Below, piece by piece: positions 33,821 through 64,000 of a DNA stretch of 64,000 nucleotides (positions are counted from its first letter, which is position 1; each line of letters opens with the position of its first letter). Source of the stretch: Pegea sp. RAD2-039 (lineage: Eukaryota > Chordata > Thaliacea > Salpida > Salpidae); the NCBI GenBank assembly GCA_034620365.1, contig JAQGEQ010000339.1, positions 1,039,163 through 1,103,162 of the forward strand, read 5' to 3'. The position numbers were made by a program, and so were the translations under genes. The notes beneath the pieces are model-generated. The model was given only the letters and a program-made list of their open reading frames with translations. It made no database searches and was not told where the DNA came from.

Positions 33821-35921
33821 TTATTGTCTATTAGGATATCCAGGTACTTTATCATACAAGGAAAAAGAATGACGTGGAGCAGTTTTATAACGTGTTGCAT
33901 TTGTGACGTTTGTAATCCAATCCATAAAGTATTTTACATCAGTGTAAACACCAGGCTTGCTAGAAATAGCACACCCTCCTCCCCAACTAGTTATTCCTCT
34001 CAAAACAAAAGTTTTCACATCTGATGGTAGAGAGCAGTATAGAGGGCCCCCTATATCACCTTTACATGCATCTTTTTTGTTACTCTGTAAAATATAAGAT
34101 CAAGAACTTTAGAATTGATCTAATCAGAAACTAATCTGTTAAAACTTACAGCAGCACAAAACATTCCATCGAAGACTTTATCTTCACCATTCGGCCGCAA
34201 TCCATAGTTTTCACGACAACGAGTTAAGCTCTTTACTCGAACATTAGCTTTTTGAAGATCAATCCCATTGGGGTCAAGCATAGCTGGAATAAAGAAGATT
34301 AAAAGAAGGTCTTATGAAAGGTTCCCTCACATGCGCATCTGTTTGTGGTTCCCCATCCAGTAATAACACATTTCCTTCCCCGCTGAAGATCAGGAAGCGA
34401 ATGCATTGGTAAGTTGATTGGCTGAGTGAGATGACTGCAAAAAAGATTGGATCAAAAGTTATAAAAATTGCGTTTAACTAACTTGTAGTGAATACATTCA
34501 TTTCCAACCAATTTGGCTAATTTGATTAAAGCAATATCAGAGGTGGGACTTGAACCTCGCTTATAGTTTGGATGAATATAAATATCTTCAATTTGAAGAT
34601 CCTAGAAATTATTCGATAACCCTCTACTAATCTCAGGTTAAGTTCTGCTCAGACCTGTTCCCATTCCTCTTTTTCATCAGAAAATGTATTGTTTTCTCCA
34701 TTAAAGATATCTCCCACCCTAACGTGGTGCTCTCTGATATAATATTTCTTTGAAGATTCATCAATGCTGAAAACAAACAATCAGATGAATATTTCTTAGG
34801 AGCAACAGCTTACACTCTATTGAAGCAATGAGCCGCCGTCAAAACCCAGCAGCTACTGATTACCACTGCCCCGCATCTATGTTTCAAAGGCAACCAGGGG
34901 TTTGCAGTATTATCTCGAATAGAAGCCTGTTTCACTTTCATTAATTGATTAAAAACAACTTTGGTTTGAAATTTACCTGCCAAGGAAACTCTCCTGATTG
35001 TGCGCTTGTGCCTCCAACAATCTTACTTTCCACTAGAAAAGATCTGACTCGTTTACCCCAATAGTCTATTAAAATAAAAATTTTTAAAGGCCATATTTAA
35101 ATTTTCGATCTGCAAACAAATCTTACTTTCTCCATTAGGGTCTGGATCACAACAATTCCAATATAAAAAACAAAATGAAATCAATAATCAATAGATTTTA
35201 AGAATAATGAATATTACCGTATATAGAAGGTAAATTAATATCATGAGGAATGACGTACAGATCTTGAAAATTGCCGTTATACCCGCGGATTTCTTTAATC
35301 TCATCAAACGAACTCATCTCATACGAAATATTGAAAAGAGGAACTTTGTTGAAAATCACTTCAAAATTTTCGCTGTGAACTGAATTGAAAAATGTTAATC
35401 TGTTTGCAATAAAATGCTTTCGCATTTAATCAATTTTCAAGTAACTATGAAAACCTAACTCACTTTTTATGCGTAGCTCAAACTGTGCTTTGGGTTTAAT
35501 CTCACGGATGAACTTCTTGAATAAAAATTTTCCGATGGAATTGCCGGCTGGTTGATTATAACTTTCTGCAAAGAACTACAACAAAGTTGTTACAATTTCA
35601 TATCAACCTGTTCTACTAACTTGGTGTCTTCTAGCTTTGAAAACAATTGAAAGAGGTCTACATTGTACACAGCGTGGCAACTTGTCTTCACCAAACATAC
35701 TAATTCGAACAGGGGCATCAGGGAAAGTCCCCTTGGCTATAATTTCATCTCCAACTTGAAGATGAGAAGTTATTTTCAGGTGGAGATATCGGTCTGTAAA
35801 TGAGAAGTCTTAGAGGATATTTCACGAGAATACAGAGTAGTATAAGATGCTTACATGTCTCCATAGAGGCTACAGCATAACTTGTAAAGAAAAGGATCAA
35901 AATAACTTCAATTTGCTTCAT
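33821..35921 (-). CDS. Array copy 1: secreted galectin-like / trypsin-like fusion, Ser195 replaced by Ile
   Basis: Twelve exons (35921-35855, 35793-35621, 35575-35464, 35379-35218, 35141-35127, 35065-34977, 34926-34814, 34766-34655, 34601-34483, 34434-34331, 34283-34150, 34084-33821) join exactly to 487 residues. Residues 1-19 are a signal peptide. Residues 25-165 follow the galectin pattern (LQVGDEIIAKGTF, KAQFELRI, ENFEVIFNKVPLF, IRGYNGNFQDLYVI). A linker DPNGE-YWGKRVRSF leads to K191|IVGG, the trypsin activation site. His239 (LTAAHC) and Asp303 (SDIALIKL) are present, but the Ser motif reads GDIGGP: Ile411 replaces the nucleophile. Asp405 at the S1-pocket position and GWG are normal. The protein should be secreted and fold like a protease without being one. 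What it binds is unknown. Confidence 0.9.
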
Positions 35922-36330
35922 CAGGCAAATCGTTTTATTTTAAAGTTGAAAAGTAATAATTCAAAAAACGATCACTTTAAAAACATAAAGAAGTGAATAA
36001 TTTGCTGACAAATGGTTTAAGCAATTTAAACGTTTTTCAGTTTAATCGTTTAAAGACTTAAAAATTTAAAACTAACAATTATTACCCTTTTCATAAGATC
36101 TATTTTTGTAGGTGACACTCAATCTTAACTAATAAACAATTTATGTCGCCAATCTTTAGTTATTTTAAAATTTAGAGTAGTTTGAAAGGGTTGTTAGAGT
36201 GAACTTTAATAGCTATAAACGAACTTTGCATTTATAACAAGTTTTTATTTGACAGCAAAATATAAATACAACTTTCTTAATTTTTGAAACAGTTCGGTAA
36301 TTGATTTTATTAAAATCACCGCTGCAACAA
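35922..36330 (-). promoter_or_regulatory. Conserved upstream region of the array genes
   Basis: About 400 bp before the start codon is nearly unchanged in copies 1-4 (also 41126-41580, 48734-49190, 56327-56790; partly visible beyond 63927). It contains paired AAACG words (cgtttttcagtttaatcgtt) and little else that is recognisable. Conservation may just reflect recent duplication. No clear TATA box was identified. Confidence 0.35.
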
Positions 36331-38200
36331 ATTGGCTTTTAATATCTTACAAGCATCAGTAAATTTTTATCGTTGAATTTCCTTTCTAAAAATAATGTGA
36401 AATATTTTCTATAACAAATCCTTATTTGAGTTTTGGTATTATATTAGAGAAAATCAACTTTTTGTCAAATAATAAATAACAATATAATTTTTTACAAAAG
36501 TTAACTGTTTACAAATCTATTTCAATTAATCAAGTTTATCCTGACTCAATAGACATTAAAACTGTTTACAACCACTTTTTGATGGTCGGTTGTTGAGAAT
36601 AATTCGTCTAGACAAATAAAGCTTGAAGCTTTCTGTCTTAAAACAAGATCAAAAGAAGCCTTATTTAGTAAAAAACCAAATTTCAAAAGACGAAAAAATT
36701 TCTTTGAACAGTTCATAGCGACAAGTGTAATGTGGTAAGAAACTCTTTCTACTTTCACGCCCTATTTCTTTTCTAAATTACTTTAATTGTGTTCTGTGCG
36801 ATAGAATTATCATCATTCTTATTACTACTTCAACCAATAAGTTCTCCTACCATAAAACATTCGTCTTTATAAAGATTTCTCTTTAAATAAAGTTGAAATG
36901 AAAATTTTTACTTTGTCATAATATTTTTGCACGAGACAAACACTTAGTAAAAAGTTGATTTTTGTTTACTGGCATATAACTAAAATAGGAAATATTTTTA
37001 GCTATTATATGGTAATAAAAAAACCCCAATTATAAACCTAGGAAAACGAAATTTTTCCTTCTATTTATTAACATGTAACCAAAATAAAATAAGGTTCTCA
37101 AAATTTTCTAATGACTGTAACAAAATTTTTAGTGAAAAAATATCATTATTTATCTCACATATATTTTCTCACTTATAAATAATTCTGTCTCAAGTCTAGT
37201 TTATTTCTTGAGCTTTTTTCTTGTTTTTAACCTCTGATTTTTATGTAGTTTATAACCTACCCACTAGTCATTATTTGCACTAAAATTATATTTGAAAATT
37301 TAGATAAACACTAAAGTCAACGCATCAAATAAAAATAAAGAAATAATAAATATTTTATAAAATAACAAATATAAACAAAAAATTTGAAAAGCTGTGAAAA
37401 AATTTGTCTAAACTTTCTACAACTTTTTACCTTTGACATTATTTTAGTCATTTTTTGTTTATATAGATGGTAAAGTTGTTTACTGATGCAAAGAATTTGC
37501 GTCATTTAATACTAAGTTTTTTATTTTAATAAGTTATACAAATGAAACCTTTCACCAATGAGTCAAACTAGTATCAATAACTATAGTTTTTAGTATTAAA
37601 AATGTATCATTATTTAAAGAGAGTTTCTCATAATCATAAATTTTAGGTATGAGTTTTGATATAATATATAAGCATAATCATTACTAAGAGTTTTAAAAAT
37701 ACTCTCTTTTAAAGAAAATCATTAAAAACAAATAAATTATCCGTTAGTCTAGGATTTGTTATTATGATATACTTAATATAACTTTTAAAGACAAAAACTT
37801 ACAGAGTTTTGATTTTTTCTATAAATAGAAGTCAGATCTTATTTGTAACTATTAATCTGCCATATCACAATTTTTTATGTAACTTAATTTTATGTAGATT
37901 AAACTAATAACATTAAATTATTCTAAGTCACCCAAGATCAATAATCCAAAAGGTTTCTTAAAACAAACTGCTATTTAAAATAAAAATAACTTATTCTTAG
38001 AGTAAACAAGTTCAAGCTTATTTCAAGTAACAAATTGCAAAGATAGGAACTTGATACCCTCCTATTTATGTTATGTTAGTCCCATGCAGCTTCATCAGTC
38101 TGTCTGTTCCGCTGCATAACTTAGCTGCGGAGGGAAGTTGAATCCTGCTGCATGGGCAAAAACTGGATGTCAATAACTTCTGTCCAATCACATATATATT
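35930..38200. other. Spacer between copies 1 and 2
   Basis: No gene. Compared with later spacers it lacks a 245-bp block (at about 36385), has an extra stretch of about 300 bp (36845-37155), and lacks the roughly 2.5-kb Ty3/gypsy and SINE block, keeping only about 85 bp of the SINE end at 38080-38165 (CCCATGCAG ... CTGCATGGG, an inverted pair). Confidence 0.7.
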
Positions 38201-39024
38201 TAATTTTTTTATAATGGATTATTATACTCAAGAATCCTTAATTTTCATTTACTAAAATTATGTTTACTTTAAAAGCTCTATGGTAAATTAAAAATCAGTT
38301 TATATATAAATTTTAGTCATTCTAAGTATGTTTTTAGAGTACAAATAAATGTGTTCAAACTATACTGGCTTTGAAAAAAGTAAATGTTTAGTGTCAGCCG
38401 GAATATTCATAATATATTTTAACATATTTGAGCAGGATAAAAACATAAAATAAATTTTATTGGATAAATTTTTTTATAACTGGTTACTCAAACTGATGGA
38501 GTTTTATTCTGTGCCCTTTTGAATATGAAGCTAAAAAATTTGACTATCATTAAGCAATATCTACCTTAATGGTTTGTGATTACCCGTGTAAAAAATGTCA
38601 TCGTTTTAATCGTTAGATTAATTTTCAAATATTTAATTTCATAATTATGAAAAATTAAACAAGTGTACTTTTACTACATTGGGTACTGTTACTAGCAAGT
38701 TTTGTTTGTAAAGATAAATTGTAAACTGGGTAGGCTTTTAACATAGTGCTCTCATATGATTCGTCAACAGAATGAAGCAAGTAAATTGATAGATAAATAA
38801 AAATCAACTCTTAGATTAATTTTTACTACATCTGCAGTTGTTTCAACTAAAGATATCATTATAGTAGAGCTTTTCCAAACATGTTTACATTTTTGTTTAT
38901 TAACTTTCTTATACTTTTTATATCACCTTTTATTTAAAATATTATCAATTTATGAATTTACTTTATTAGGAATCATTTACAAAACCGTCAACCTATTAGA
39001 AGTATATTTACAGGTAGAAAAGTT

Positions 39025-41125
39025 TTATTGTCTATTAGGATATCCAGGTACTTTATCATACAAGAAAAAAGAATGACGTGGAGCAGTTTTATAACGGGTC
39101 GCATTTGTGACGTTTGTAATCCAATCCATAAAGTATTTTACATCAGTGTAAACACCAGGCTTGCTAGAACTAGCACACCCTCCTCCCCAACTAGTTAATC
39201 CTCTCAAAACAAAAGTTTCCACATCTGATGGTAGATAGCAGTATAGAGGGCTTCCACTATCACCGTCAATTAAATTATTTGTGTTACTCTGTAAGGTATA
39301 AGATCAAGACCTTTAGAATTGATCTTATCAGAAACTAATCTGTTAAAACTTACTGCAGCACAAAACATTCCATCTAAGACTTTATCTTCACCATTCGGTC
39401 GCAATCCATAGTTTTCACGACAACGACTTAAGCTCTTTACTCGAACCTTAGCTTTTTGAAGATCAAACCCAGTGGGGTCAAGCATAGCTGAAATAAAGAA
39501 GATTAAAAGAAGGTCTTATGAAAGGTTCCCTCACATGCGCATCTGTTTGTGGTTCTCCATCCAGTAATAACACATTCCCTTCCCCGCTGAAGATCAGGAA
39601 GTGAATGCATTGGTAAGTTGATTGGCTGAGTGAGATGACTGCAAAAAAGATTGGATGAAAAGTTATAAGAATTGCGTTTAACTAACTTGTAGTGAATACA
39701 TTCATTTCCAACCACTTTGGCTAATTTGATTAAAGCAATATCAGAGATGGGACTTGAACCTCGCTCATAGTTTGGATGAATATAAATATCTTCAATTTGA
39801 AGATCCTACAAAATCATTCGATAACCATCTACTAATCTCAGGTTAAGTTCTGCTCAGACCTGTTCCCATTCCTCTTTTTCATCAGAAGAAGTATTGTTTT
39901 CTCCGTTAAAGATATCTCCCACCCTAACGTGGTGCTCTCTGATATAATATTTCTTTGAAGATTCATCAATGCTGAAAACAAACAATCAGATGAATATTTC
40001 TTAGGAGCAACAGATTACATTCTATTGAAGCAATGAGCCGCCGTCAAAACCCAGCAGCTACTGATTACCACTGCCCCGCATCTATGTTTAAAAGGCCACC
40101 AGGGGTTTGCAATATTTTCCCGAATAGAAGCCTGTTTCACTTTCATTAATTGATTAAAAACAATTTTGGTTTGAATTTTACCTGCCAAGGAAACTCTCCT
40201 GATTGTGCGCTTGTTTCTCCAAAAGTCCTGAATTGAACTAGAAACGATCTGTCTCGTTTACCCCAATAATCTATTAAAAAAATTTCTTAAAGGCTGAAAC
40301 TTAAATTTTCGATCTGTAAACATAACTTACTTTGTCCATCAGGGTCTGGATTACGTTGATTCCAACATAAAAAACAAAGTGAAATGAAAAACCAATATAT
40401 TTTAAATATAGTGAATATTACCGTACATAGAAGGTAAATTAATATCATGAGGAATGACATAAAGATCTTGAAAATTGCCGTTATACCCGCGGATTTCTTT
40501 GATCTCATCAAACGAGCTCATCTCATACGAAATATTGAAAAGAGGAACTTTGTTGAAAATCACTTCAAAATTTTCGCTGTGAACTGAATTGAAAAATGTT
40601 AATCTGTTTGCAACAAAATGCTTTCGCATTTAGTCGATTTTCAAGTAACTATGAAAACGTAACTCACTTTTTATGCATAGCTCAAACTGTGCTTTGGGTT
40701 TAATCTCACGGATGAACTTCTTGAATAAAAATTTTCCGATGGAATTGCCGGCTGGTTGATTATAACTTTCTGCAAGGAACTACAACAAAGTTGTTACAAT
40801 TTCATATCAACTTTTTCTACTAACTTGGCGTCTTCTAGTTCTAAAAGAAATTGAAAAAGGTGTACATCGTACACAGCGTGGCAACTTGTCTTCACCAAAC
40901 ATACTAATTCGAACAAGGGCATTAGGGAAAGTCCCCTTAGCTACAATTTCATCTCCAACTTGAAGCCGTGAAGTTAGCGTCAGGTAGAGATTTTGGTCTG
41001 TAAATGAGAAGTCTTAGAGGATATTTCACGAAAATACCGAGTAGTATAAGATGCTTACATGTCGCTGTAGATACTACAGCATAACTTGTAAAGAAAAGGA
41101 TCAAAATAACTTCAATTTGCTTCAT
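39025..41125 (-). CDS. Array copy 2: galectin-like / trypsin-like fusion, activation motif and Cys191 lost
   Basis: Exon plan as in copy 1, with every exon examined open. The signal peptide is MKQIEVILILFFTSYAVVS. The galectin-like part reads LQVGDEIVAKGTFPNALVRI. The activation peptide is changed: where copy 1 has ESK|IVGGTS, this copy reads QFR|TFGETS, so the new N-terminal Ile-Val-Gly-Gly needed to form the active site is gone. The Ser motif itself is good (GDSGSP), but the residues before it are NLID instead of DACK: the S1 Asp189 is Asn and Cys191 is Ile, leaving its partner in WGGGCA unpaired. The conserved GWG reads GWR. His (LTAAHC) and Asp (SDIALI) are kept. It is probably inactive for a different reason than copy 1. 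Confidence 0.88.
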
Positions 41126-41600
41126 CAGGCAAATCGTTTTATTTTAAAATTGAAAAGTAATAATTCAAAAAACGATCACTTTAAAAACATAAAGAAGTGA
41201 ATAATTTACTGACAAATGGTTTAAGCAATTTAAACGTTTTTCAGTTTAATCGTTTAAAGACTTAACAATTTAAAACTAACAATTATTACCCTTTTCTTAA
41301 GATATATTTTTGTAGGTTACACTCAATCTTAACTAATAAACAATTTATGTCGCCAATCTTTAGTTATTTTAAAATTTAGAGTAGTTTGAAAGGGTTGTTA
41401 GAGTGAACTTTAATAGCTATTAACAAACTTTGCATTTATAACAAGTTTTTATTTGACAGCAAAATATAAATAAAACTTTCTTAATTTTTGAAACAGTTCG
41501 ATAATTGATTTTATTAAAATCACCGCTGCAACAAAATGGCTTTTAATATCTTAGAAGCATCAGTGAATTTTTATCGTTGAATTTCCTTTCTAAGCATAAT

Positions 41601-41846
41601 GCAGTTAACACTATAAAAAGCTGGCACTGATCACGTGTTTATAGATTAACATTACTTCTGTGAAGATAATCGGAGCCTCAAGACATGGCAAAGTTATGAA
41701 TTACAAAATGCTACAAATAAAGAAAAACATAGTTTAATATATCACATGTCAACAAAATTTCTAAATTTATACTTACATAAGATACCATCAGTTGTTTTTC
41801 TAATTTTTAAAAGTAATAATAAAAAGAAATTTATTTAAGTAGTGAA
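41601..41846. repeat. Roughly 245-bp block present in spacers 2-4, absent from spacer 1
   Basis: Sequence from cagttaacactataaaaagc to gaaatttatttaagtag interrupts an otherwise alignable spacer (copies at 49208-49450 and 56808-57052). No clear terminal inverted repeats or target duplication were found, so insertion in units 2-4 and deletion from unit 1 are both possible. Confidence 0.6.
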
Positions 41847-43124
41847 ATATTTTCTATAACAAATCCTTATATAATTTTGGTATTTTATTAGAGAAAATCA
41901 ACTGTTTGTCCAAAGATAAATAACAATCTAATTTTTTACAAAAGTTAAACTTTTTACAAATCTATTTCAATTGATCAAGTTTATTCTGACTCAATAGATA
42001 TTGAAAACTACATAGTTTACAACCACTTAATGATGATGGTTTGTTGAAAATGAAGAGTCTATACATATAAAACTTGAAGCTTTCTGTCTTAAAGCAAGAT
42101 CAAAAGAAGCCTTATTCAGTAAAAAACAAATTTCAAAATGAGAAAAAATTTCTTTGAACAGTTCATAGCGACTAGTGTAATGTGGTAAGAAACTCTTTCT
42201 ACTTTCACGCCCTATTTCTTTTCTAAATTACTTTAATTGTGTTCTGTGCGATAGAATTATCATCAGTTTTATTGCTACTTCAAAGAATAATTTCACCTTG
42301 TTTTCTCGCTTATAAATAAATCTGTCTGAATTCTAGTTTATTTCTTGAGATTTTTTCTTGTTTTTAACCTTTGATATTTATGTAGCTGATAACCTATCAA
42401 ACTGGTCATTATTTGGTCTAAAACTATACCTGGTATTTTAGATAAACACTAAAGTCAAACACATTAAATAAAAGTAAAGAAATAATAAATATATTATGAA
42501 ATAAATATAAAAAGATGAATTTAAAAAGCTGTAAAAAAATTTGTCTAAACTTTCTACAATTTTTTTACCTTAGACAATATTTTAGTCGTTTTTTGTTTAT
42601 AGAGATGGTAAAGTTGTTTACTGATGCAAAGAATTTACGTCTTTTAATGCTGAGTTTTTTATTGTAACAAGTTATAGAAATGAAATGTTTTACCAATGAG
42701 TCAAACTAGTATTGATAACTATAGATTTTTAATGTTAAAAATGTATGATTATTTAAAAAGAGTTTCTCAGAACCATAAATTTTAGGTATGAGTTTTGATA
42801 TAATATATAAGTATAATCATTACTAAGAGTTTTAAAAATACTCGCTTTTAAAGAAAATCATTAAAAACAAATAAATTATCCATTAGTCTAGGATTTGTTA
42901 TTATTGTATACTTAATATAACTTTTAAAGACAAACACTTACAGAGTTTTGAATTTTTCTATAAATAGAAGTCAGATTTTTATTTGTAACTAATAATCTGC
43001 CATATCACAATTTTTTATGTAACTTAATTTTATGTAGATTAAACTAATAACATTAAATCATTTTAAGTCAACCAAGATCAATAATCCAAAAGGTTTCTTA
43101 AAACAAACTGCTATTTAAAATAAA

Positions 43125-44150
43125 TATAATTTATACTTAAATAATCCTTGAAAAGACTGCAAAACAATATTACCGATTATGGCAACTATCAATTTCTTGA
43201 ATTTTTCAAGCAGTTATTTTCCCAGTAATAATTAGAAGTATAACTTCCGATTGCTTGATCAGAATTACAAAAACCATTTGGAAACATGTCACGATATAAC
43301 CCTAGTTTTGTAATCAAACTTTTAGATATAACAAACATTAAAAGTATTTTAACTAGATCAATAAGGTAAACTGCAAATTACTAATAATAATGGTTTCATT
43401 TATTGCAGTAAAGTTATGCATCCACAATTCAGAATTTATTTTACTTGCAGTTTTGTTGCATTTCAATTAACTGAAAAGTAGTTTTCATAAAAGATGTTAA
43501 ATAGTTCTAAAACTTATTCATAAAGGTTAATTCAAACATTTCTTCCTTAATCCGAGAACATAAATATCATAATTGAGAAGAAATACAGAAACCCAAAATG
43601 CCATTTCTCATAAAAGACAATATGAACACAGTTAATTTCAAGTATAAACATGTAATTTCTATCCGAGTAAATATGGTTTAATTCACAAAATTCAATGACC
43701 ACCAGTTGCTATTAACTGAATTAATTCATAAACTTATTGATAAAAATTAATGACTCATCAAATCAAACTTTATTCAAAAATATTAAGGTGACTAACAACA
43801 ATGATAAGTATACTAACGATACGCGCTACTTACAACACATTCTTGTGCCGAATGACAAAATAGGAAAATGACGAGTAACACATTTACGTCACCGTCAGAA
43901 TAGTTTTCTTCTATACCACATTCTTCCAAATTAAATGATTAAGCCGAACATTAAAGAATTCACGTTGTCTTATTACTGCCACCAACGAAAAATAGCCCCA
44001 ACAATATTGCTTTGGAGGTACATCTTCATATGATCTAATGATCTGCCGTTTATGCCGATCTTTGGGCTGACAGCATCACTCTTGTAAACTATTAAAGCTC
44101 GTCATCATTTCCTCATTAGAAACCTGCACACTCAAACCACCCCTCACTTC
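43125..44150. other. Left part of the roughly 2.5-kb block in spacer 2
   Basis: Non-coding DNA absent from the spacer between copies 1 and 2; the break is near 43125 (37975 in unit 1). It repeats at about 50740-51720 and 58340-59330. It probably belongs with the adjacent retroelement relic, but no LTR was recognised. Confidence 0.45.
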
Positions 44151-45420
44151 ATCTTCTTGATTTTATCTAGTCATGATTTTGTCATTGGGATTCTCCCTCA
44201 TATCACTTGGTGAAACCTGTCAGAAACCATCAAAGAAACGTTGGATTCCCTGCCATCCAAATAGCAGACTCGAGCGTATACCAGGTTAGCCTCTAGCAGT
44301 TCAACTTTCTTTACCCTATAATTTTCTTTGCTCTTGAGTACAGTGTTTTGCAAGAGTGTCCTTGCAAAGCCAATTTGGGAAAAAAAGTCCCAGAGGTGTT
44401 CTTCGACTGAAGCTGAAAAGTCTTGATTGAGGAGCTTTGTTTGTTGATGTACAAACTTCAAACAAAATTAAAAGTCCGTGGTAACACTTGTTCAAATTTT
44501 TGGCTGGTAGATCTCTGAACTTTAATTTTTACTTCTCTCTACCTTGTGGGTGGCAGGGAGTTGTCCTACTGCATAAAACTCTTTTTTGTAAGAGATCATT
44601 TTTCAGTTGTCGAGACATGAATGGATATGACTGCGAGTTCTAAGCAATGAAAACCATCTTTCCAAGCAGCTGATAACCGTGTTAGAATCCATCCTAGAGC
44701 ACGGAAAAGAAAAAAGGAAATCTAGAAAGCTCGTCAACAATAAACAAGAAAAATACATTCTTAATACTACTCACAATAGGGCCCTTAAAATCCACGTTAA
44801 ATTTTTCCTTTGATGAGAGTGTCATTGCTCATATGGTAAAACGTTGGGCGAAATTATGAGCAGATTGTGCTCTCATCAAAACATCTCCATATCAGTAAGT
44901 GAGTATAGGAGGTTTTTGACCTCATCCAGCAACACAAAGTTTGGTGAAGCATCTTAATATCCAATTTTATCGTTGATGTAGTTCCACCGTAAGTCCTTGA
45001 TAATGCGTCTGGCCTTACATTTGTATCTCCTTATAGTATACGAAAAAGATGCTAATTCCATCCTCCAACTCATAGTTTTGACATTCTTCTTTTTCGACTT
45101 TTTCTTACAGTCTAACATAAACGTAATTGATCTTTGATCTGTTATCAGGAAGATGTACTGCGACAACAGCAAGTAACTCCATTTTTGAACAGATTTGATA
45201 ATGGTAATCGCTTCCTTCTCCACTGCAGGGTATAACAACTCTATCGCTACTCTCTCTAAAACTCTCTATTGCTACATACTTCCATCACTTTCAACTCTGA
45301 TTGGTAAGATTTTATCCATGACCTGTAATGTGGACTTGGCAATATTCTTCTTGAGCTCTTCATATTCCGGGATCTATCTTTCTCCCACAAAGAATTGATG
45401 AACCTTTTTCAGTCGTCTAG
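44150..45420 (-). mobile_element. Ty3/gypsy relic in spacer 2 (RNase H and integrase C-terminal pieces)
   Basis: The minus-strand frame 45238-44954 reads LYPAVEKEAITIIKSVQKW and then LITDQRSITFMLD, typical of the RNase H region of Ty3/gypsy pol. The frame at 44461-44198 contains LVYARVCYLDGRESNVSL, like the C-terminal end of gypsy integrases. Frames between them are broken, the rest of pol, gag and LTRs are missing, and the element is dead. Near-identical copies sit in spacers 3 and 4, so insertion preceded the amplification of those units. Confidence 0.75.
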
Positions 45421-45429
45421 TCTTAGCTC

Positions 45430-45770
45430 TCCATCTGTTTGATGAAGCAGTTACCATACCTGACTACCAAGTGGGTGGTTACGGGTTTGATCCCAGAAGG
45501 ACACATATCAGAGATAAGGAAAAGACCATTTAAAAAGCCCGGGTAGAAAGGCCCCTGTGAGTCTAGTAAAATGACAACACTTCTAGGAGATGCAAAACTC
45601 CGAATTGAAAAAGTCGGATTTAGAGCCTTGTAGGTAGCTCGTCACTGTACTCAGTGTCATTCTAGTAACTCTTGAGACGCCAGTCCCATGCAGCTTCATC
45701 AGTCTGTCTGTTCTGCTGCATTATCTAGCTGTGGAGGAAAGTGGAATCCTGCTGCATGGGCAAAAACTGG
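45430..45770 (+). mobile_element. tRNA-derived SINE in spacer 2
   Basis: The head has a tRNA look (GCAGTTACCATACCTGACTA, then a B-box-like GGGTTTGATCCC). The body contains GGAGATGCAAAACTCC and CACTGTACTCAGTGTC, and the end carries the inverted pair CCCATGCAG / CTGCATGGG. It is the same family as the element at 17995-18289, in the opposite direction. Confidence 0.65.
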
Positions 45771-46631: not shown

Positions 46632-48733
46632 TTATTGTCTATTAGGATATCCAGGTACTTTATCATACAAGGAAAAAGAATGACGTGGAGAAGTTTTATA
46701 ACGTGTTGCATTTGTGACGTTTGTAATCCAATCCATAAAGTATTTTACATCCGTGTAAACACCAGGCTTGCTAGAAATAGCACACCGTCCTCCCCAACTA
46801 GTTATTCCTCTCAAAACAAAAGTTTTCACATCTGATGGTAGAGAGCAGTATAGAGGGCTTCCACTATTACCTTTACATGCATATTTTATGTTACTCTGTA
46901 AAATATAAGATAAGAAACTTTTAAAGTTGATCTAATCAGAAACTAATCTGTTAAAACTTACTGCAGCACAAAACATTCCATCTAAGACTTTATCTTCACC
47001 ATTCGGTCGCAATCCATAGTTTTCACGACAACGAGTTAAGCTCTTTACTCGAACATTAGCTTTTTGAAGATAAATCTTATTTGGGCCAAGCATAGCTGAA
47101 ATAAAGAAGATTAAAAGACGATCATTTAAAAGGTTCTCTCACATGTGTATCTGTTTGTGGTTCTCCATCCAGTAATAACACATTCCCTTCCCCGCTGAAG
47201 ATCAGGAAGTGAATGCATTGGTAAGTTGATTGGCTGAGTGAGATGACTGCAAAAAAGATTGGATGAAAAGTTATAAGAATTGCGTTTAACTAACTTGTAG
47301 TGAATGCATTCATTTCCAACCACTTTGGCTAATTTGATTAAAGCAATATCAGAGGTGGGACTTGAACCTCGCTCATAGTTTGGATGAATATAAATATCTT
47401 CAATTTGAAGATGCTACAAAATCATTCGACAACCATCTACTAATCTCAGGTTAAATTCTGCTCAGACCTGTTCCCATTCCTCTTTTTCATCAGAAGAAGT
47501 ATTGTTTTCTCCATTAAAGATATCTCCCACCCTAACGTGGTGCTCACTGATATAATATTTCTTTGAAGATTTATCAATGCTGAAAACAAACAATCAGATA
47601 AATATTGATTAGGACCAACAGCTTACACTCTATTGAAGCAATGAGCCACCGTCAAAACCCAGCAGCTACTGATTACCACTGCCCCGCATCTATGTTTTAA
47701 AGGCCACCAGGGGCTTGCAATATTTTCCCGAATAGAAGCCTGTTTCACTTTCATTAATTGATTAAAAACAACTTTGGTTTGAAATTTACCTGCCAAGGAA
47801 ACTCTCCTGATTGTGCGCTTGTGCCTCTAACAATCCTTCTTTCCACTAAAAACGATCTGACTCGTTTACCCCAATTGTCTATAAAAAAAAATTTTTTAAA
47901 GGCCATATTTAAATTTTCGATCTGCAAACAAAACTTACTTTCTCCATCAGGGTCTGGATCACAACAATTCCAACATAAAAAACAAAATGAAATGAATAGC
48001 TAATATATTTTAAGAATAATGAATATTACCGTATATAGAAGGTAAATTTATATCATGAGGAATGACGTAAAGATCTTGAAAATTGCCGCTATATCCGCGG
48101 ATTAGTTCAATCTCATCAAACGAGCTCATCTCATACGAAATATTGAAAACAGGAACTTTGTTGAAAATCACTTCAAAATTTTCGCTGTGAACTGAATTGA
48201 AAAATGTTAATCTGTTTGCAATAAAATGCTTTCGCATTTAGTCGATTTTCAAGTAACTATGAAAACGTAACTCACTTTTTATACATAGCTCAAACTGTGC
48301 TTTGGGTTTAATCTCACGGATGAATCTTTTGAATAAACGTCTTGTGATGAAACTACCGGCTTGTGTATTCATACTTTCTGCAAAGAACTACAACAAAGTT
48401 GTTACAATTTCATATCAACTTTTTCTACTAACTTGGTGTCTTCTAGTTCTAAAAGCAATCCTAAGAGGTATACATCGTACACAGCGGGGTGACCTGTCTT
48501 CACCAAACATATTAATTCTAGTATCCCAATTATTAAAAGTTCCCTTAGCTATAATTTCATCTCCGACTTGAAGACGAGAAGTTAGTTTCAGCGAGAGAGT
48601 TCGGTCTGTAAATGAGAAGTCTTAGATGATGTTTCACGAGAATACAGAGTAGTATAAAATGCTTACATGTCGCTGTAGATACTACAGCATAACTTGTAAA
48701 GAAAAGGATCAAAATAACTTCAATTTGCTTCAT
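46632..48733 (-). CDS. Array copy 3: galectin-like / trypsin-like fusion, GNSGS and IVRG
   Basis: Same exon plan; no stop seen in the exons examined. The galectin part has changed loops (AKGTFNNWDTRINMFG and a NTQAGSFITRRLF stretch). The activation site is R|IVRG instead of IVGG. His is kept in LTVAHC and Asp in SDIALI. The Ser motif reads YACKGNSGSP: Ser195 remains, but Asp194, which normally pairs with the freed N-terminus, is Asn, and the S1 position 189 is Tyr. The position before Cys220 is Arg (WGGRCA), and GWG reads GWR. By sequence the 3' half matches copy 5 and the 5' half matches copy 4, so the gene looks like a conversion mosaic. Confidence 0.88.
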
Positions 48734-53010: not shown

Positions 53011-53024
53011 GTCGTCTTAGCTCT

Positions 53025-54225: not shown

Positions 54226-56326
54226 TTATTGTCTATTAGGATATCCAGGTACTTTATCAAACAAGGAAAAAGAATGACGTGGAGCAGTTTTATAACGTGT
54301 TGCATTTGTGACGTTTGTAATCCAATCCATAAAGTATTTCACATCCGTGTAAACACCAGGCTTGCTAGAAATAGCACACCCTCCTCCCCAACTAGTTATT
54401 CCTCTCAAAACAAAAGTTTTCACATCTGATGGTAGAGAGCAGTATAGAGGGCTTCCACTATCACCTTTACATGCATATTTTATGTTACTCTGTAAAATAT
54501 AAGATAAGAAACTTTTAAAGTTGATCTAATCAGAAACTAATCTGTTAAAACTTACTGCAGCACAAAACATTCCATCTAAGACTTTATCTTCACCATTCGG
54601 TCGCAATCCATAGTTTTCACGACAACGAGTTAAGCTCTTTACTCGAACATTAGCTTTTTGAAGATAAATCTTATTTGGGCCAAGCATAGCTAAAATAAAG
54701 AAGATTAAAAGACGATTATTTAAAAGGTTCTCTCACATGTGTATCTGTTTGTGGTTCTCCATCCAGTAATAACACATTCCCTTCCCCGCTGAAGATCAGG
54801 AAGTGAATGCATTGGTAAGTTGATTGGCTGAGTGAGATGACTGCAAAAAAATTGGATGAAAAGTTATAAGAATTGCGTTTAACTAACTTGTAGTGAATGC
54901 ATTCATTTCCAACCACTTTGGCTAATTTGATTAAAGCAATATCAGAGGTGGGACTTGAACCTCGCTCATAGTTTGGATGAATATAAATATCTTCAATTTG
55001 AAGATGCTACAAAATCATTCGACAACCATCTACTAATCTCAGGTTAAATTCTGCTCAGACCTGTTCCCATTCCTCTTTTTCATCAGAAAATGTATTGTTT
55101 TCTCCATTAAAGATATCTCCCACCCTAACGTGGTGCTCACTGATATAATATTTCTTTGAAGATTTATCAATGCTGAAAACAAACAATCAGATAAATATTG
55201 ATTAGGACCAACAGCTTACACTCTATTGAAGCAATGAGCCACCGTCAAAACCCAGCAGCTACTGATTACCACTGCCCCGCATCTATGTTTTAAAGGCCAC
55301 CAGGGGCTTGCAATATTTTCCCGAATAGAAGCCTGTTTCACTTTCATTAATTGATTAAAAACAACTTTGGTTTGAAATTTACCTGCCAAGGAAACTCTCC
55401 TGATTGTGCGCTTGTGCCTCTAACAATCCTTCTTTCCACTAAAAACGATCTGACTCGTTTACCCCAATTGTCTATAAAAAAAAATTTTTTAAAGGCCATA
55501 TTTAAATTTTCGATCTGCAAACAAAACTTACTTTCTCCATCAGGGTCTGGATCACAACAATTCCAACATAAAAAACAAAATGAAATGAATAGCTAATATA
55601 TTTTAAGAATAATGAATATTACCGTATATAGAAGGTAAATTTATATCATGAGGAATGACGTAAAGATCTTGAAAATTGCCGCTATATCCGCGGATTAGTT
55701 CAATCTCATCAAACGAGCTCATCTCATACGAAATATTGAAAAGAGGAACTTTGTTGAAAATCACTTCAAAATTTTCGCTGTGAACTGAATTGAAAAATGT
55801 TAATCTGTTTGCAAAAAAATGCTTTCGCATTTAGTCGATTTTCAAGTAACTATGAAAACGTAACTCACTTTTTATGCATAGCTCAAACTGTGCTTTGGGT
55901 TTAATCTCACGGATGAATCTTTTGAATAAACGTCTTGTGATGAAACTACCGGCTTGTGTATTCATACTTTCTGCAAAGAACTACAACAAAGTTGTTACAA
56001 TTTCATATCAACTTTTTCTACTAACTTGGTGTCTTCTAGTTCTAAAAGCAATCCTAAGAGGTATACATCGTACACAGCGGGGTGACCTGTCTTCACCAAA
56101 CATATTAATTCTAGTATCCCAATTATGGAAAGTCCCCTTAGCTATAATTTCATCTCCGACTTGAAGACGAGAAGTTAGTTTCAGCGAGAGAGTTCGGTCT
56201 GTAAATGAGAAGTCTTAGATGATGTTTCACAAGAATACAGAGTAGTATAAGATGCTTACATGTCGCTGTAGATACTACAGCATAACTTGTAAAGAAAAGG
56301 ATCAAAATAACTTCAATTTGCTTCAT
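54226..56326 (-). CDS. Array copy 4: galectin-like / trypsin-like fusion with complete Ser motif
   Basis: Same exon plan. The triad is formally complete: LTVAHC, SDIALI and GDSGSP, with both Asp194 and Ser195, and WGGGCA is normal. It still departs from active S1 enzymes at R|IVRG (Gly18 to Arg), GWR for GWG and Tyr at S1 position 189 (YACKGDSG). The galectin loop reads AKGTFHNWDTRINMFG. The 5' half is almost the same as copy 3. It is the copy most likely to keep some proteolytic ability, with an unusual pocket; specificity for Lys or Arg is not expected without Asp189. Confidence 0.88.
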
Positions 56327-59300
56327 CAGGCAAATCGTTTTATTTTAAAATTGAAAAGTAATAATTCAAAAAACGATCACTTTAAAAACATAAAGAAGTG
56401 AATAATTTACTGACAAATGGTTTAAGCAATTTAAACGTTTTTCAGTTTAATCGTTTAAAGACTTAACAATTTAAAACTAACAATTATTACCCTTTTCTTA
56501 AGATCTATTTTTGTAGGTTACACTCAATCTTAACTAATAAACAATTTATGTCGCCAATCTTTAGTTATTTTAAAATTTAGAGTAGTTTGAAAGGGTTGTT
56601 AGAGTGAACTTTAATAGCTATTAACAAACTTTGCATTTATAACAAGTTTTTATTTGACAGCAAAATATAAATAAAACTTTCTTAATTTTTGAAACAGTTC
56701 GGTAATTGATTTTATTAAAATCACCGCTGCAACAAAATGGCTTTTAATATCTTAGAAGCATCAGTGAATTTTTATCCTTGAATTTCCTTTCTAAGCATAA
56801 TGCAGTTAACACTATAAAAAGCTGGCACTGATCACGTGTTTATAGATTAACATTACTTCTGTGAAGATAATCGGAGCCTCAAGACATGGCAAAGTTATGA
56901 ATTACAAAATGCTACAAATAAAGAAAAACATAGTTTGATATATCACATGTCAACAAAATTTCTAAATTTATACTTACATAAGATACCATCAGTTGTTTTT
57001 CTAATTTTTAAAAGTAATAATAAAAAGAAATTTATTTAAGTAGTGAAATATTTTCTATAACAAATCCTTATATAATTTTGGTATTTTATTAGAGAAAATC
57101 AACTGTTTGTCCAAAGATAAATAACAATCTAATTTTTTACAAAAGTTAAACTTTTTACAAATCTATTTCAATTGATCAAGTTTATTCTGACTCAATAGAT
57201 ATTGAAAACTACATAGTTTACAACCACTTAATGATGATGTTTTGTTGAAAATGAAGAGTCTATACATATAAAACTTGAAGCTTTCTGTCTTAAAGCAAGA
57301 TCAAAAGAAGCCTTATTCAGTAAAAAACAAATTTCAAAATGAGAAAAAATTTCTTTGAACAGTTCATAGCGACTAGTGTAATGTGGTAAGAAACTCTTTC
57401 TACTTTCACGCCCTATTTCTTTTCTAAATTACTTTAATTGTGTTCTGTGCGATAGAATTATCATCAGTTTTATTGCTACTTCAAAGAATAATTTCACCTT
57501 GTTTTCTCGCTTATAAATAAATCTGTCTGAATTCTAGTTTATTTCTTGAGATTTTTTCTTGTTTTTAACCTTTGATATTTATGTAGCTGATAACCTATCA
57601 AACTGGTCATTATTTGGTCTAAAACTATACCTGGTATTTTAGATAAACACTAAAGTCAAACACATTAAATAAAAGTAAAGAAATAATAAATATATTATGA
57701 AATAAATATAAAAAGATGAATTTAAAAAGCTGTAAAAAAATTTGTCTAAACTTTCTACAATTTTTTTACCTTAGACAATATTTTAGTCGTTTTTTGTTTA
57801 TAGAGATGGTAAAGTTGTTTACTGATGCAAAGAATTTACGTCTTTTAATGCTGAGTTTTTTATTGTAACAAGTTATAGAAATGAAATGTTTTACCAATGA
57901 GTCAAACTAGTATTGATAACTATAGATTTTTAATGTTAAAAATGTATGATTATTTAAAAAGAGTTTCTCAGAACCATAAATTTTAGGTATGAGTTTTGAT
58001 ATAATATATAAGTATAATCATTACTAAGAGTTTTAAAAATACTCGCTTTTAAAGAAAATCATTAAAAACAAATAAATTATCCATTAGTCTAGGATTTGTT
58101 ATTATTGTATACTTAATATAACTTTTAAAGACAAACACTTACAGAGTTTTGAATTTTTCTATAAATAGAAGTCAGATTTTTATTTGTAACTAATAATCTG
58201 CCATATCACAATTTTTTATGTAACTTAATTTTATGTAGATTAAACTAATAACATTAAATCATTTTAAGTCAACCAAGATCAATAATCCAAAAGGTTTCTT
58301 AAAACAAACTGCTATTTAAAATAAATATAATTTATACTTAAATAATCCTTGAAAAAACTGCAAAACAATATTACCGATTATGGCAACTATCAATTTCTTG
58401 AATTTTTCAAGCAGTTATTTTCCCAGTAATAATTAGAAGTATAACTTCCGATTGCTTGATCAGAATTACAAAAACCATTTGGAAACATGTCACGATATAA
58501 CCCTAGTTTTGTAATCAAACTTTTAGATATAACAAACATTAAAAGTATTTTAACTAGATCAATAAGGTAAACTGCAAATTACTAATAATAATGGTTTCAT
58601 TTATTGCAGTAAAGTTATGCATCCACAATTTAGAATTTATTTTACTTGTAGTTTTGTTGCATTTCAATTAACTGAAAAGTAGTTTTCATAAAAGATGTTA
58701 AATAGTTCTAAAACTTATTCATAAAGGTTAATTCAAACATTTCTTCCTTAATCCGAGAACATAAATATCATAATTGAGAAGAAATACAGAAACCCAAAAT
58801 GCCATTTCTCATAAAAGATAATATGAACACAGTTAATTTCAAGTATAAACATGTAATTTCTATCCGAGTAAATATGGTTTAATTCACAAAATTCAATGAC
58901 CACCAGTTGCTATTAACTGAATTAATTCATAAACTTATTGATAAAAATTAATGACTCATCAAATCAAACTTTATTCAAAAATATTAAGGTGACTAACAAC
59001 AATGATAAGTATACTAACGATACGCGCTACTTACAACACATTCTAATGCCGAATGACAAAATAGGAAAATGACGAGTATCACATTTACGTCACCGTCAAA
59101 ATACTTTACTGCTCTACCACATTCTTCCAAATTAAATGATTAAGCCGAACATTAAAGAATTCACGTTGTCTTATTACTGCCACCAACAGCAAATAACCCC
59201 AACAATATTGCTTTGGAGGTACATCTTCAAATGATCTGCCGTTTATGCCGATCTTTGGGCTGACAGCAGCATTCTTGTAAACTATTAAAGCTCGTCATCA

Positions 59301-59329
59301 TTTCCTCATTAGAAACCTGCACACTCAAC

Positions 59330-60610
59330 TCACCCCTCACTTCATCTTCTTCCTATCTAGTCATGACTTTTTCATTGGGATTCTCCCTCATCTCACTTGG
59401 TAAAACCTGTCAGAAACCATCAAAGAAACGTTGGATTCCCTTACATCCAAATAGCAGACTCGAGCGTATACCAGGTTAGCCTCTAGCAGTTCAACTTTCT
59501 TTACCCTATAATTTTCTTTGCTCTTGAGTACAGTGTTTTGCATGAGTGTCCTTGCAAAGCCAATTTGGGAAAAAAAGTCCCAGAGGTGTTCTTCGACTGA
59601 AGCTGAAAAGTCTTGATTGAGAGGCTTTGTTTGTTGATGTACAAACTTCAAACAAAATTAAAAGTCCGTGGTAACACTTGTTCAAATTTTTGGCTGGTAG
59701 ATCTCTGAACTTTAATTTTTATTTCTCTTTACCTTGTGGGTGGCAGGGAGTTGTCCTACTGCATAAAACTCTTTTTTGTAAGACATCATTTTTCAGTTGT
59801 CGAGACCTGAATGGATATGACTGCGAGTTCTAAGCAATGAAAACCATCTTTCCAAGCAGCTGATAACCGTGTTAGAATCCATCCTAGAGCACGGAAAAGA
59901 AAAAAGGAAATCTAGAAAGCTCGTCAACAATAAACAAGAAAAATACATTCTTAATACTACTCACAATAGGGCCCTTAAAATCCACGTTAAATTTTTCCAT
60001 TGATAAGAGTGTCATCGCTCATCTGGTAAAACGTTGGGCGAAATTATGAGCAGATTTTGCTCTCATCAAAACATCTCCATATCAGTAAGTGAGTATAGGA
60101 GGTTTTTGACCTCATCCAGCAACACAAAGTTTGGTGAAGCATCTTAATATCCAATTTTATCGTTGATGTAGTTCCACCGTAAGTCCTTGATAATGCGTCT
60201 GGCCTTACATTTGTATCTCCTTATAGTATACGAAAAAGATGCTAATTCAATCCTCCAACTCATAGTTTTGGCATTCTTCGTTTTCGACTTTTTCTTACAG
60301 TCTAACATAAACGTAATTGATCTTTGATCTGTTATCAGGAAGATGTACTGCGACAACAGCAAGTAACTCCATTTTTGAACAGATTTGATAATGGTAGTCG
60401 CTTCCTTCTCCACTGCAGGGTATAACAACTCTATCGCTACTCTCTCTAAAACTCTCTATTGCTACATACTTCCATCACTTTCAACTCTGATTGGTAAGAT
60501 TTTATCCATGACCTGTAATGTGGCCTTGGCAATATTCTTCTTGAGCTCTTCATATTCCGGGATCTATCTTTCTCCCACAAAGAACTGATGAACCTTTTTC
60601 AGTCGTCGTC
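59330..60610 (-). mobile_element. Ty3/gypsy relic in spacer 4
   Basis: Third copy: RNase H frame at 60428-60144 and integrase C-terminal frame at 59651-59388. By eye the spacer containing it is closer to spacer 2 than to spacer 3. Confidence 0.72.
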
Positions 60611-60614
60611 TTAG

Positions 60615-60955
60615 CTCTCCATCTGTTTGATGAAGCAGTTACCATACCTGCCTACCAAGTGGGTGGTTCCGGGTTTGATTCCAGATGGACACATATCAGT
60701 GACAAGGAAAAGACCATTTAATAAGCCCAGGTAGAAAGGCCCCTGTGAGTCTAGTAAAATGACAACACTTCTAGGAGATGCAAACCTCCGAATTAAAAAA
60801 GTCGGATTGAGAGCCTTGTAGGTAGCTCGTCACTGTACTCAGTGTCATTCTAGTAACTCTTGAGACGCCAGTCCCATGCAGCTTCATCAGTCTGTCTGTT
60901 CTGCTGCATTATCTAGCTGTGGAGGAAAGTGGAATCCTGCTGCATAGGTAAAAAC
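60615..60955 (+). mobile_element. tRNA-derived SINE in spacer 4
   Basis: Same element as in spacers 2 and 3, with B-box-like GGGTTTGATTCC and the end CTGCATAGG as in spacer 3. Confidence 0.63.
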
Positions 60956-61823
60956 TGGATGTCAATAACTTCTGTCCAATCACATGTATGCTTAATTTTT
61001 TTATAATGGATTATTATACTCAAAAATCCTTAATTTTCATTGACGAAAAATTATGTCTACTTTAAAAGCCTTATGGTAAATTAAAAATCAGTTTATATAT
61101 AAATTTTAGTCATTCTAAGTATGTTTTTAGAGTACAAATAAATGTGTTCAAACTATACTGGCTTTGAAAAAAGTAAATGTTTAGTGTCAGCATGAATATT
61201 CATAATATATTTTGACATATTTGAGCAGGATAAAAACATAATAAATTTTAGTGAATAAATCTTTTCATAACTGGTTACTCAAACTGATAGAGTTTTATTC
61301 TGTGCCATTTTGAATATGAAGCTAAAAAATTTGACCCTTCTTCAGTAAGCAATATCTACCTTAATGGTTTGTGATTACCTGTGTAAAAAAATGTCTTCAT
61401 TTTAATCGTTAGATTACTTTTCAAATATTTAATGTTAGAAGTATGAAAAAATAAAGAAGTTTTACTTTTACTACATTGCGTACTGTTACTAGCAAGTTTT
61501 GTTTTGAAAGATAAATTGTAAACTGGATAAGCTTTTAAACATTGTGCTCTCATATGATTCGTCAACAGGATGAGACAAGTAAATTGATAAATAAATTAAA
61601 ATAAATTATTAGATCAATTTTTACTACATCTGCAGTGTTTTCAACTAAAGATATCATTATAGTAGAGCTTTTCCAAACATGTTTACATTTCTGTTTATTA
61701 ATTTTCTTATACTTTTTATATCACCTTCTATTTAAAATATTATCAAATTATGAATTTACTTTATTAGGAATCATTTACAAAACTGTCAACATATTAGAAG
61801 TATATTTACAGGTGGAAAAAGTT

Positions 61824-63926
61824 TTATTGTCTATTAGGATATCCAGGTACTTTATCATACAAGGAAAAAGAATGACGTGGAGAAGTTTTATAACGTGTTG
61901 CATTTGTGACGTTTGTAATCCAATCCATAAAGTATTTTACATCCGTGTAAACACCAGGCTTGCTAGAAATAGCACACCGTCCTCCCCAACTAGTTATTCC
62001 TCTCAAAACAAAAGTTTTCACATCTGATGGTAGAGAGCAGTATAGAGGGCTTCCACTATTACCTTTACATGCATATTTTATGTTACTCTGTAAAATATAA
62101 GATAAGAAACTTTTAAAGTTGATCTAATCAGAAACTAATCTGTTAAAACTTACTGCAGCACAAAACATTCCATCTAAGACTTTATCTTCACCATTCGGTC
62201 GCAATCCATAGTTTTCACGACAACGAGTTAAGCTCTTTACTCGAACATTAGCTTTTTGAAGATAAATCTTATTTGGGCCAAGCATAGCTGAAATAAAGAA
62301 GATTAAAAGACGATCATTTGAAAGGTTCTCTCACATGTGTATCTGTTTGTGGTTCTCCATCCAGTAATAACACATTCCCTTCCCCGCTGAAGATCAGGAA
62401 GTGAATGCATTGGTAAGTTGATTGGCTGAGTGAGATGACTGCAAAAAAGATTGGATGAAAAGTTATAAGAATTGCGTTTAACTAACTTGTAGTGAATGCA
62501 TTCATTTCCAACCACTTTGGCTAATTTGATTAAAGCAATATCAGAGATGGGACTTGAACCTGGCTCATAGTTTGGATGAATATAAATATCTTCAATTTGA
62601 AGATGCTACAAAATCATTCGACAACCATCTACTAATCTCAGGTTAAATTCTGCTCAGACCTGTTCCCATTCCTCTTTTTCATCAGAAGAAGTATTGTTTT
62701 CTCCATTAAAGATATCTCCCACCCTAACGTGGTGCTCACTGATATAATATTTCTTTGAAGATTTATCAATGCTGAAAACAAACAATCAGATGAATATTTC
62801 TTAGGAGTAACAGCTTACACTCTATTGAAGCAATGAGCCGCCGTCAAAACCCAGCAGCTACTGATTACCACTGCCCTGCATCTATGTTTTAAAGGCCACC
62901 AGGGGCTTGCAATATTTTCCCGAATAGAAGCCTGTTTCACTTTCATTAATTGGTAAAAAACAACTTTGGTTTGAAATTTACCTGCCAAGGAAACTCTCCT
63001 GATTGTATGCTTTTGCCTCTAACAATCCTACTTTCCACTAGAAACGATCTGACTCGCTTACCCCAATTGTCTATTAAAAAAAAATTTTTTAAAGGCCATA
63101 TTTAAATTTTCGATCTGCAAACAAAACTTACTTTCTCCATCAGGGTCTGGATCACAACGATTCCAACATAAAAAACAAAATGAAATGAATAGCTAATATA
63201 TTTTAAGAATAATGAATATTACCGTATATAGAAGGTAAATTTATATCATGAGGAATGACGTAAAGATCTTGAAAATTGCCGCTATATCCGCGGATTAGTT
63301 CAATCTCATCAAACGAGCTCATCTCATACGAAATATTGAAAAGAGGAACTTTGTTGAAAATCACTTCAAAATTTTCGCTGTGAACTGAATTGAAAAATGT
63401 TAATCTGTTTGCAACAAAATGCTTTCGCATTTAGTCGATTTTCAAGTAACTATGAAAACGTAACTCACTTTTTATGCGTAGCTCAAACTGTGCTTTGGGT
63501 TTAATCTCACGGATGAACTTTTTGAATAAACGTTTTATGATGAGACTGCCCGCTTGTCTATTCGAACTTTCTGCAAGGAACTACAACAAAGTTGTTACAA
63601 TTTCATATCAACTTTTTTTACTAACTTGGTGTCTTCTAGTTCTAAAAGAAATTGAAAGAGGTCTACATCGTACACAGCGGGGTGACCTGTCTTCACCAAA
63701 CATATAAATTGCAGTATCCGAATTATGGAAAGTCCCCTTAGCTATAATTTCATCTCCGACTTGAAGACGAGAAGTTAGTTTCAGCGAGAGAGTTCGGTCT
63801 GTAAATGAGAAGTCTTAGATGATGTTTCACAAGAATACAGAGTAGTATAAAATGCTTACATGTCGCTGTAGATACTACAGCATAACTTGTAAAGAAAAGG
63901 ATCAAAATAACTTCAATTTGCTTCAT
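61824..63926 (-). CDS. Array copy 5: galectin-like / trypsin-like fusion, GNSGS and IVRG
   Basis: Same exon plan; the start codon lies 74 bp from the right window edge, so the promoter is cut off. The protease part shares GNSGS, WGGRCA and Tyr189 with copy 3, but the His motif is LTAAHC and the Asp loop reads EPGSSPISDIALI. The activation site is SR|IVRGKS. The galectin part is distinct from copies 3 and 4: FLAESSNRQAGSLIIKRLF and GTFHNSDTAIYMFG. Asp194 to Asn and Gly18 to Arg together make zymogen activation by the normal salt bridge unlikely. Confidence 0.88.
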
Positions 63927-64000
63927 CAGGCAAATCGTTTTATTTTAAAATTGAAAAGTAATAATTCAAAAAACGATCACTTTAAAAACATAAAGAAGTG

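Follow-up and report, generated by a model that had tools for sequence, protein, structure and literature searches.

The DNA analysed here, referred to below as the window, is a stretch of 64,000 nucleotides (nt) from the salp Pegea sp. RAD2-039 (GenBank assembly GCA_034620365.1, contig JAQGEQ010000339.1, positions 1,039,163 to 1,103,162 of the forward strand); it forms the terminal part of contig C39 in a searched genome of 105.7 Mb in 387 contigs. Positions 33821-63926 carry, on the minus strand, five head-to-tail copies of one gene, each predicted to encode a secreted protein with a galectin-like N-terminal domain followed by a trypsin-like (S1) domain:

33821..35921, minus strand: copy 1 (c1), 12 exons, 487 amino acids (aa); activation site SKIVGG; His and Asp kept, with Ile (GDIGGP) where the catalytic Ser would be
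39025..41125, minus strand: copy 2 (c2), 487 aa; FRTFGE in place of the activation motif; NLIDGDSGSP with Ser kept, Cys191 and Asp189 lost
46632..48733, minus strand: copy 3 (c3), 487 aa; RRIVRG, TVAHC, YACKGNSGSP (Asp194 replaced by Asn, Tyr at 189)
54226..56326, minus strand: copy 4 (c4), 487 aa; RRIVRG, TVAHC, YACKGDSGSP (Tyr at 189)
61824..63926, minus strand: copy 5 (c5), 487 aa; SRIVRG, TAAHC, YACKGNSGSP

From c1 to c5, the start-to-start distances are 5.2, 7.6, 7.6 and 7.6 kb. Alignment of whole units revealed 92.4-93.6% identity between c1 and the others, and about 96% among c2-c5. The initial annotation had described a five-gene array; the five copies are real, but as the array is cut off by the edge of the window, this number is a lower bound. 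Contig C39 stops at window base 64000, and positions 1-8967 of contig C40 match window positions 55043-64000 at 99.4% identity, an unmerged contig overlap that possibly represents two haplotypes. The protein encoded by the C40 version of c5 is identical to that of the window, while the partial c4 on C40 differs from its window counterpart in one residue. Beyond the overlap, C40 carries two further full copies, c6 and c7, and the array therefore continues past the contig end and comprises at least seven copies. The c6 gene encodes 491 aa; its exon 2 is followed by a GC donor, the only one in this copy, and its exon 12 is lengthened in frame by 12 nt. The c7 gene encodes 485 aa, with a C-terminal end different from that of the other copies. 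When the N-terminal domain was used to search the whole genome at expectation values (E) up to 10, all 30 pieces returned lay inside the array.

The array is flanked by two similar stretches in opposite orientation (window 30469-33428 and C40:27503-31049) that by eye resemble long interspersed nuclear elements; the single open reading frame (ORF) scanned from the stretch in the window had no Pfam match. ORF remnants recalling, by eye, a long terminal repeat retroelement occupy window positions 44198-45641 (minus strand) in the spacer of a 7.6-kb unit, and such remnants may explain the shorter spacing between c1 and c2. A dispersed repeat of roughly 150 bases, found in at least 32 further genomic places, lies at about 43730-43900.

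The exons of c1, with variable alignment columns counted over the seven copies, are as follows:

35855..35921, minus strand: exon 1, start codon and a hydrophobic segment read by eye as a signal peptide
35621..35793, minus strand: exon 2, first part of the galectin-like domain; the most variable exon, 55/173 columns
35464..35575, minus strand: exon 3, middle of the galectin-like domain; 31/112 columns variable; ends after the QFEL-I-K strand
35218..35379, minus strand: exon 4, last part of the galectin-like domain; 12/162 columns variable; ratio of non-synonymous to synonymous change (pN/pS) 0.29
35127..35141, minus strand: exon 5, a 15-nt linker micro-exon, the skipping of which would, by phase, keep the frame
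34977..35065, minus strand: exon 6, remaining linker, SKIVGG activation site and start of the S1 domain
33821..34926, minus strand: exons 7-12, remainder of the S1 domain and the C-terminal tail

Joining these 12 exons by splice site and phase reproduced the single open frame of 487 codons originally proposed for c1. Transfer of the c1 boundaries by alignment gave 487 stop-free codons in each of c2-c5, and in c1-c5 every intron is GT-AG and exon lengths are equal. All seven full copies have one frame without a stop or frameshift, their exon lengths being the same except for the exon 12 insertion of c6 and the end of c7. The frame and the Pfam matches described below support the earlier view of a tandemly repeated, secreted-looking two-domain gene with an S1 domain, the signal peptide being read by eye. 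The linker has no Cys, and the segment which in S1 zymogens usually contains the tether Cys reads, by eye, PINLP.

The two halves of the protein fared differently in hidden Markov model (HMM) searches. The Pfam Trypsin family (PF00089) was matched by all three copies scanned, with E 3.2e-51 for c1, 3.4e-47 for c4 and 6.6e-52 for c7, at 161.5-176.9 bits against a cut-off of 20.6 and over profile positions 1-220 of 220, while the galectin family was the best match of the N-terminal half yet always stayed below its cut-off. By its profile, the C-terminal half is certainly a trypsin-like domain, and the nearest structures to c1 in PDB are plasma kallikrein (E 6.6e-35) and factor XI.

The copies were compared with the set expected of an active S1A protease, namely an IVGG activation site, His57, Asp102, Asp189, Asp194 and Ser195 (chymotrypsin numbering, assigned by eye). 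This set is complete in one copy of seven, c7 on contig C40 (KIVGG, TAAHC, SDIAL, DACKGDSGGP), and in none of the five copies in the window, leaving no fully canonical protease there. The activation site and the His and Asp motifs noted earlier in c1 are indeed present; the initial annotation omitted the catalytic Ser, which is Ile in GDIGGP, the only departure of this copy from the canonical set. The copies c3, c4 and c5 share an IVRG activation site and a Tyr in position 189, with Asp194 replaced by Asn in c3 and c5; c6 keeps IVGG and has Phe at 189 and Asn for Asp194; and in c2-c6 the Ser is followed by GSP instead of GGP. His57 and Asp102 are found in all seven copies and Ser195 in six, being lost in c1 only. 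These changes at positions other than Ser suggest that c2-c6 may be catalytically inactive. The strongest candidates for lost catalysis are c1, which lacks Ser195, c2, which lacks the activation motif, and c3, c5 and c6, which lack Asp194; the status of c4 is uncertain, and c7 would be a normal zymogen.

The assignment of the N-terminal half to the galectins, made in the initial annotation from sequence patterns, is probable but not proven. When the N-terminal domains were scanned alone, the galectin family PF00337 was the top Pfam match for all seven (E 0.0013-0.0098), the runner-up families reaching E 0.078 or worse. In four copies (c3, c4, c6 and c7) the match spans the whole domain in register, and the best score was obtained for residues 22-161 of c7 (E 0.0009, 19.1 bits, profile positions 4-121 of 132). 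A hand-reversed consensus had no galectin match, its sole match being an unrelated family at E 0.39. A family profile built from six copies, with c3 left out, had 11 matches in PDB at E of 10 or less, all of them galectin-domain chains. Ten of these entries are of galectin-13 (E 0.58-0.70); the other is 2wsu (E 1.3), which a galectin-7 match at 1.2e-27 identifies as a protein with a galectin domain. Comparison of the family profile with a profile of three galectins gave a score of 21.8 (E 0.0076), as against 12.7 for the reversed alignment and a mean of 12.2 (standard deviation 2.4, maximum 24.5) for 300 column shuffles, one of which reached 21.8 or more.

Several results weigh against this assignment. 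The PF00337 scores of all seven domains (15.8-18.6 bits) lie under the cut-off of 22.1, and in c1, c2 and c5 the best-matching stretch is the second half of the domain only. A hand-made family consensus did no better (E 0.0039 over 44-127), hhalign gave the three-galectin comparison a probability of 5%, and a phmmer search of PDB with the N-terminal domain of c1 yielded three matches (E 0.74-1.5), two of them unrelated and the third 2wsu. Other searches were silent: an NCBIfam scan returned one weak, unrelated match; PF00337 had no match in the whole genome, which is uninformative, since none was obtained in any of 14 control genomes either; and a galectin-3 query, run without a positive control, found nothing in the genome, so that ordinary galectins provide no bridge.

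Galectin-type sugar binding found no support in the sequences. H-x-N-x-R is absent from all seven proteins and W-x-x-E-x-R from all seven N-terminal domains, these motifs being what we take to be the sugar-binding residues of strands S4-S6, and within residues 23-165 Trp occurs in c3 and c4 only, at position 49. The galectin-like domain is encoded by exons 2-4. The end of exon 3, with QFEL-I-K, aligns with the galectin strand taken as F3 (strand name by eye), while the exon 2/3 boundary falls after S4, presumably unlike the galectin gene layout. According to the accessible part of PMC5751359, three exons encode a galectin carbohydrate-recognition domain (CRD), of which the second ends in strand F3 or F4, the former defining F3-CRDs, and ligand residues sit in strands S4-S6. 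The equivalents of S4-S6, placed by eye at about residues 65-100, fall inside the variable part of the domain, and strands of the opposite face would be encoded by the conserved exon 4. Taken together, a galectin fold of the N-terminal domain appears probable and classical galactoside binding unlikely.

Divergence among the seven copies is uneven. Variable residues number 18/42 at positions 23-64, 20/36 at 65-100, 6/17 at 101-117 and 5/54 at 118-171, and the difference between residues 23-117 (44/95) and 118-171 (5/54) is significant (p 1.7e-6). Pooled pN/pS is 0.88 for exons 2 and 3, 0.29 for exon 4, 0.59 for the linker, and 1.25 and 0.89 for the two parts of the protease. Variable columns are more frequent in exons 2-3 than in introns 1-3 (86/285 versus 15/190 columns, p 1.4e-9); the share of variable columns is 0.19-0.29 in introns 4, 5, 10 and 11. 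The closest relatives also switch along the gene: in exon 3, c1 differs from c2 at 2/112 positions and from c7 at 19/112, but in exon 6 the respective figures are 13/89 and 2/89. Such switching between exons suggests mosaic divergence through gene conversion or unequal exchange.

Other features of the divergence count against a diversifying recognition domain. A concentration of variability on the supposed ligand face (65-100) was rejected (p 0.36 against 23-64), as was a faster evolution of exons than introns gene-wide (258/1463 versus 96/633 columns, p 0.18). In exons 2-3, synonymous change is high as well (0.16 and 0.14), and the variability of these exons is therefore no proof of positive selection; the pairwise ratios of non-synonymous to synonymous substitution rates (dN/dS) among copies, 0.38-1.14, also fit relaxed constraint.

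Retention of the frames was assessed by simulating neutral drift over exons 1-11, with half of the observed differences and the copies treated as independent. The ancestor was c7, since the consensus ancestor itself contained a stop codon, and c3 and c4 were left out of the product as being close to c5. The chance that c1, c2, c5 and c6 would all stay stop-free was about 5e-5. Therefore, the copies with broken protease motifs seem to have been retained as proteins.

What can be read from the DNA itself is a single frame, a tandem array, coding constraint, an uneven mosaic divergence and the loss of at least one protease feature in six of the seven copies. We propose, with a probability of roughly 0.4, that these at least seven tandem tunicate genes encode secreted, mostly pseudo-protease recognition proteins, composed of a galectin-like beta-sandwich, a short cleavable linker and a trypsin-like domain. 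The galectin-like half would be the recognition part, with the standard beta-galactoside site absent and its first two exons variable; the pattern of divergence suggests that this part may bind something and has diversified. Under this proposal, c7 would be an ordinary zymogen, cleaved at Lys-Ile and having trypsin-type specificity, while the other copies would serve chiefly as non-catalytic binding proteins, cofactors or decoys for the same partner or surface, acting in the haemolymph or mucus. Given the Cys-free linker and the PINLP tether segment, cleavage would free the galectin-like part instead of leaving it disulfide-bound. In the portion of PMC5465252 available, ascidian galectins are listed as inflammation mediators and the activation of phenoloxidase is attributed, as a presumed function, to serine proteases of haemocytes; an immune setting is reasonable on these grounds. 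An immune role of the array is our inference. We regard as quite improbable the more elaborate version, in which one active zymogen is accompanied by largely silenced paralogues whose variable galectin-like domains, reshuffled between copies by gene conversion, provide a range of specificities, either to bind microbes or to discriminate self from non-self in gametes, with the active copy giving the proteolytic signal.

Other explanations of the array were considered. Its genes could be duplicates of an ordinary secreted protease, the N-terminal half being an uncharacterised pro-domain, with the additional copies decaying passively and having no role in recognition. Such decay would fit the dN/dS of 0.65-1.14 in 20 of the 21 copy pairs and the loss of canonical protease features in six copies, but it is at odds with seven frames free of stops and frameshifts (about 5e-5 for four copies under neutrality, counting stops alone) and with the clear constraint on exon 4, and we consider it somewhat unlikely. 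The array could also encode sperm or egg-coat proteins involved in gamete recognition or self-sterility. Ascidian sperm use trypsin-like proteases at fertilisation, and gamete-recognition proteins are commonly encoded by variable tandem genes; the variable exons 2-3 adjoining the conserved exon 4, as well as the mosaic sharing of exon 3 by c1 and c2 and of exon 6 by c1 and c7, would agree with this. On the other hand, the sequence holds no pointer to gonad expression and inspection of the C-terminal tail by eye revealed no membrane anchor, and a gamete function seems unlikely to us.

A chance resemblance to galectins, with the N-terminal domain having another fold, is compatible with any of the other readings. 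The sub-cut-off scores, the missing sugar-binding motifs and the position of the exon 2/3 boundary after strand S4 could all be so explained; set against them are the first rank of PF00337 in all seven copies, with no other family better than E 0.078, the in-register match over the whole domain in four of them, the exclusive matching of galectin-domain chains by the family profile in PDB, and the unrelated family at E 0.39 as the sole match of the hand-reversed consensus. Another fold is thus a lesser possibility. It is very improbable that the two halves are read apart, as a secreted galectin-like protein and a protease. Although read-through into intron 4 would terminate a galectin-only protein within a few codons, the phases of exons 4, 5 and 6 agree in all seven copies, and residues 166-195 are free of Met in six of the seven (c2 has Met at 170), leaving no start for a protease-only product there.

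Secreted zymogens joining a lectin to a protease are already known as a kind: horseshoe-crab Factor C combines a lectin-type and a trypsin-like domain in one protein. Its lectin, however, is C-type and is accompanied by sushi, LCCL and EGF modules, whereas the domain of the array is galectin-like. Lost catalysis with intact frames is also seen in clip-domain serine protease homologues and in the inactivated protease paralogues of the scabies mite; the array would share this property, adds a galectin-like domain and, in c1 and c4, has no clip match. The comparison with MASP/C1r and clip-protease systems made in the initial annotation found no support in the sequence, since the full proteins of c1 and c4, scanned with an E limit of 1, matched Trypsin and PF00337 only and showed neither CUB, CCP or EGF modules nor a clip domain; the likeness to MASP/C1r is one of logic only, that of a recognition-linked S1 protease. 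S1A proteases (PF00089) resemble the array proteins over the whole domain, c7 having the full set of canonical motifs, while the array differs by the lack of at least one canonical feature in six of the seven copies and of a Cys in the usual tether segment.

Among chordate galectins (PF00337), the closest likeness is to galectin-13, the top match of the family profile in PDB, alongside the first rank of the family in Pfam for every copy. The three-exon domain with a middle exon ending at an F3-like strand in part recalls the F3-CRDs, as described in the accessible part of PMC5751359. The array proteins differ from these galectins by a signal-peptide-like start, the fusion to a protease, the absent sugar-site motifs and a score below the cut-off. 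The Ciona galectins CiLgals-a/b are named in the available text of PMC8462739. No galectin-trypsin fusion was described in the open-access literature searched on tunicate galectins and proteases, as far as it was accessible, including the available portions of PMC9334734, PMC5465252, PMC5751359, PMC11934519, PMC10433773 and PMC8462739.

If the galectin fold is confirmed, the array would represent the fusion of a galectin-type module with a serine protease that is secreted. Tunicates are the sister group of vertebrates, and here such an organism would have a gene array with a variable recognition part and, in most copies, missing protease features. It would thereby offer a concrete and testable example of the way in which proteases may evolve into a family of recognition proteins.

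The rest of the window contains several other features:

1-1147, plus strand: a 24-base minisatellite over 1.1 kb, with units mostly more than 90% alike and a unit length that is a multiple of three, followed up to about 2.8 kb by apparent exons of a coiled-coil-type gene (by eye)
about 7715-10007, plus strand: a Wnt gene, the N-terminal part of which matches PF00110 at 1.7e-26
about 13735-16176, minus strand: exon-like ORFs recalling, by eye, a dipeptidyl-peptidase-type gene; the single fragment scanned had no Pfam match
27315-28109, plus strand: an ORF with RWD and UPF0029 domains, IMPACT-like

Scans of the window with Rfam and for tRNA genes gave no match, and searches with the COX1 family and an 18S pattern were likewise negative. 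A spliced leader was found elsewhere in the genome. The spliced leader of Ciona intestinalis is 16 bases long and its tandem unit 264 bases, according to the part of PMC7986045 available; this 16-base leader occurs 272 times in the genome, as against no occurrence of the reversed pattern. Part of these matches lies in a tandem spliced-leader array at C4:1135044-1142217, with a unit of about 199 bases, and in all four units read the leader is directly followed by GTAAG.

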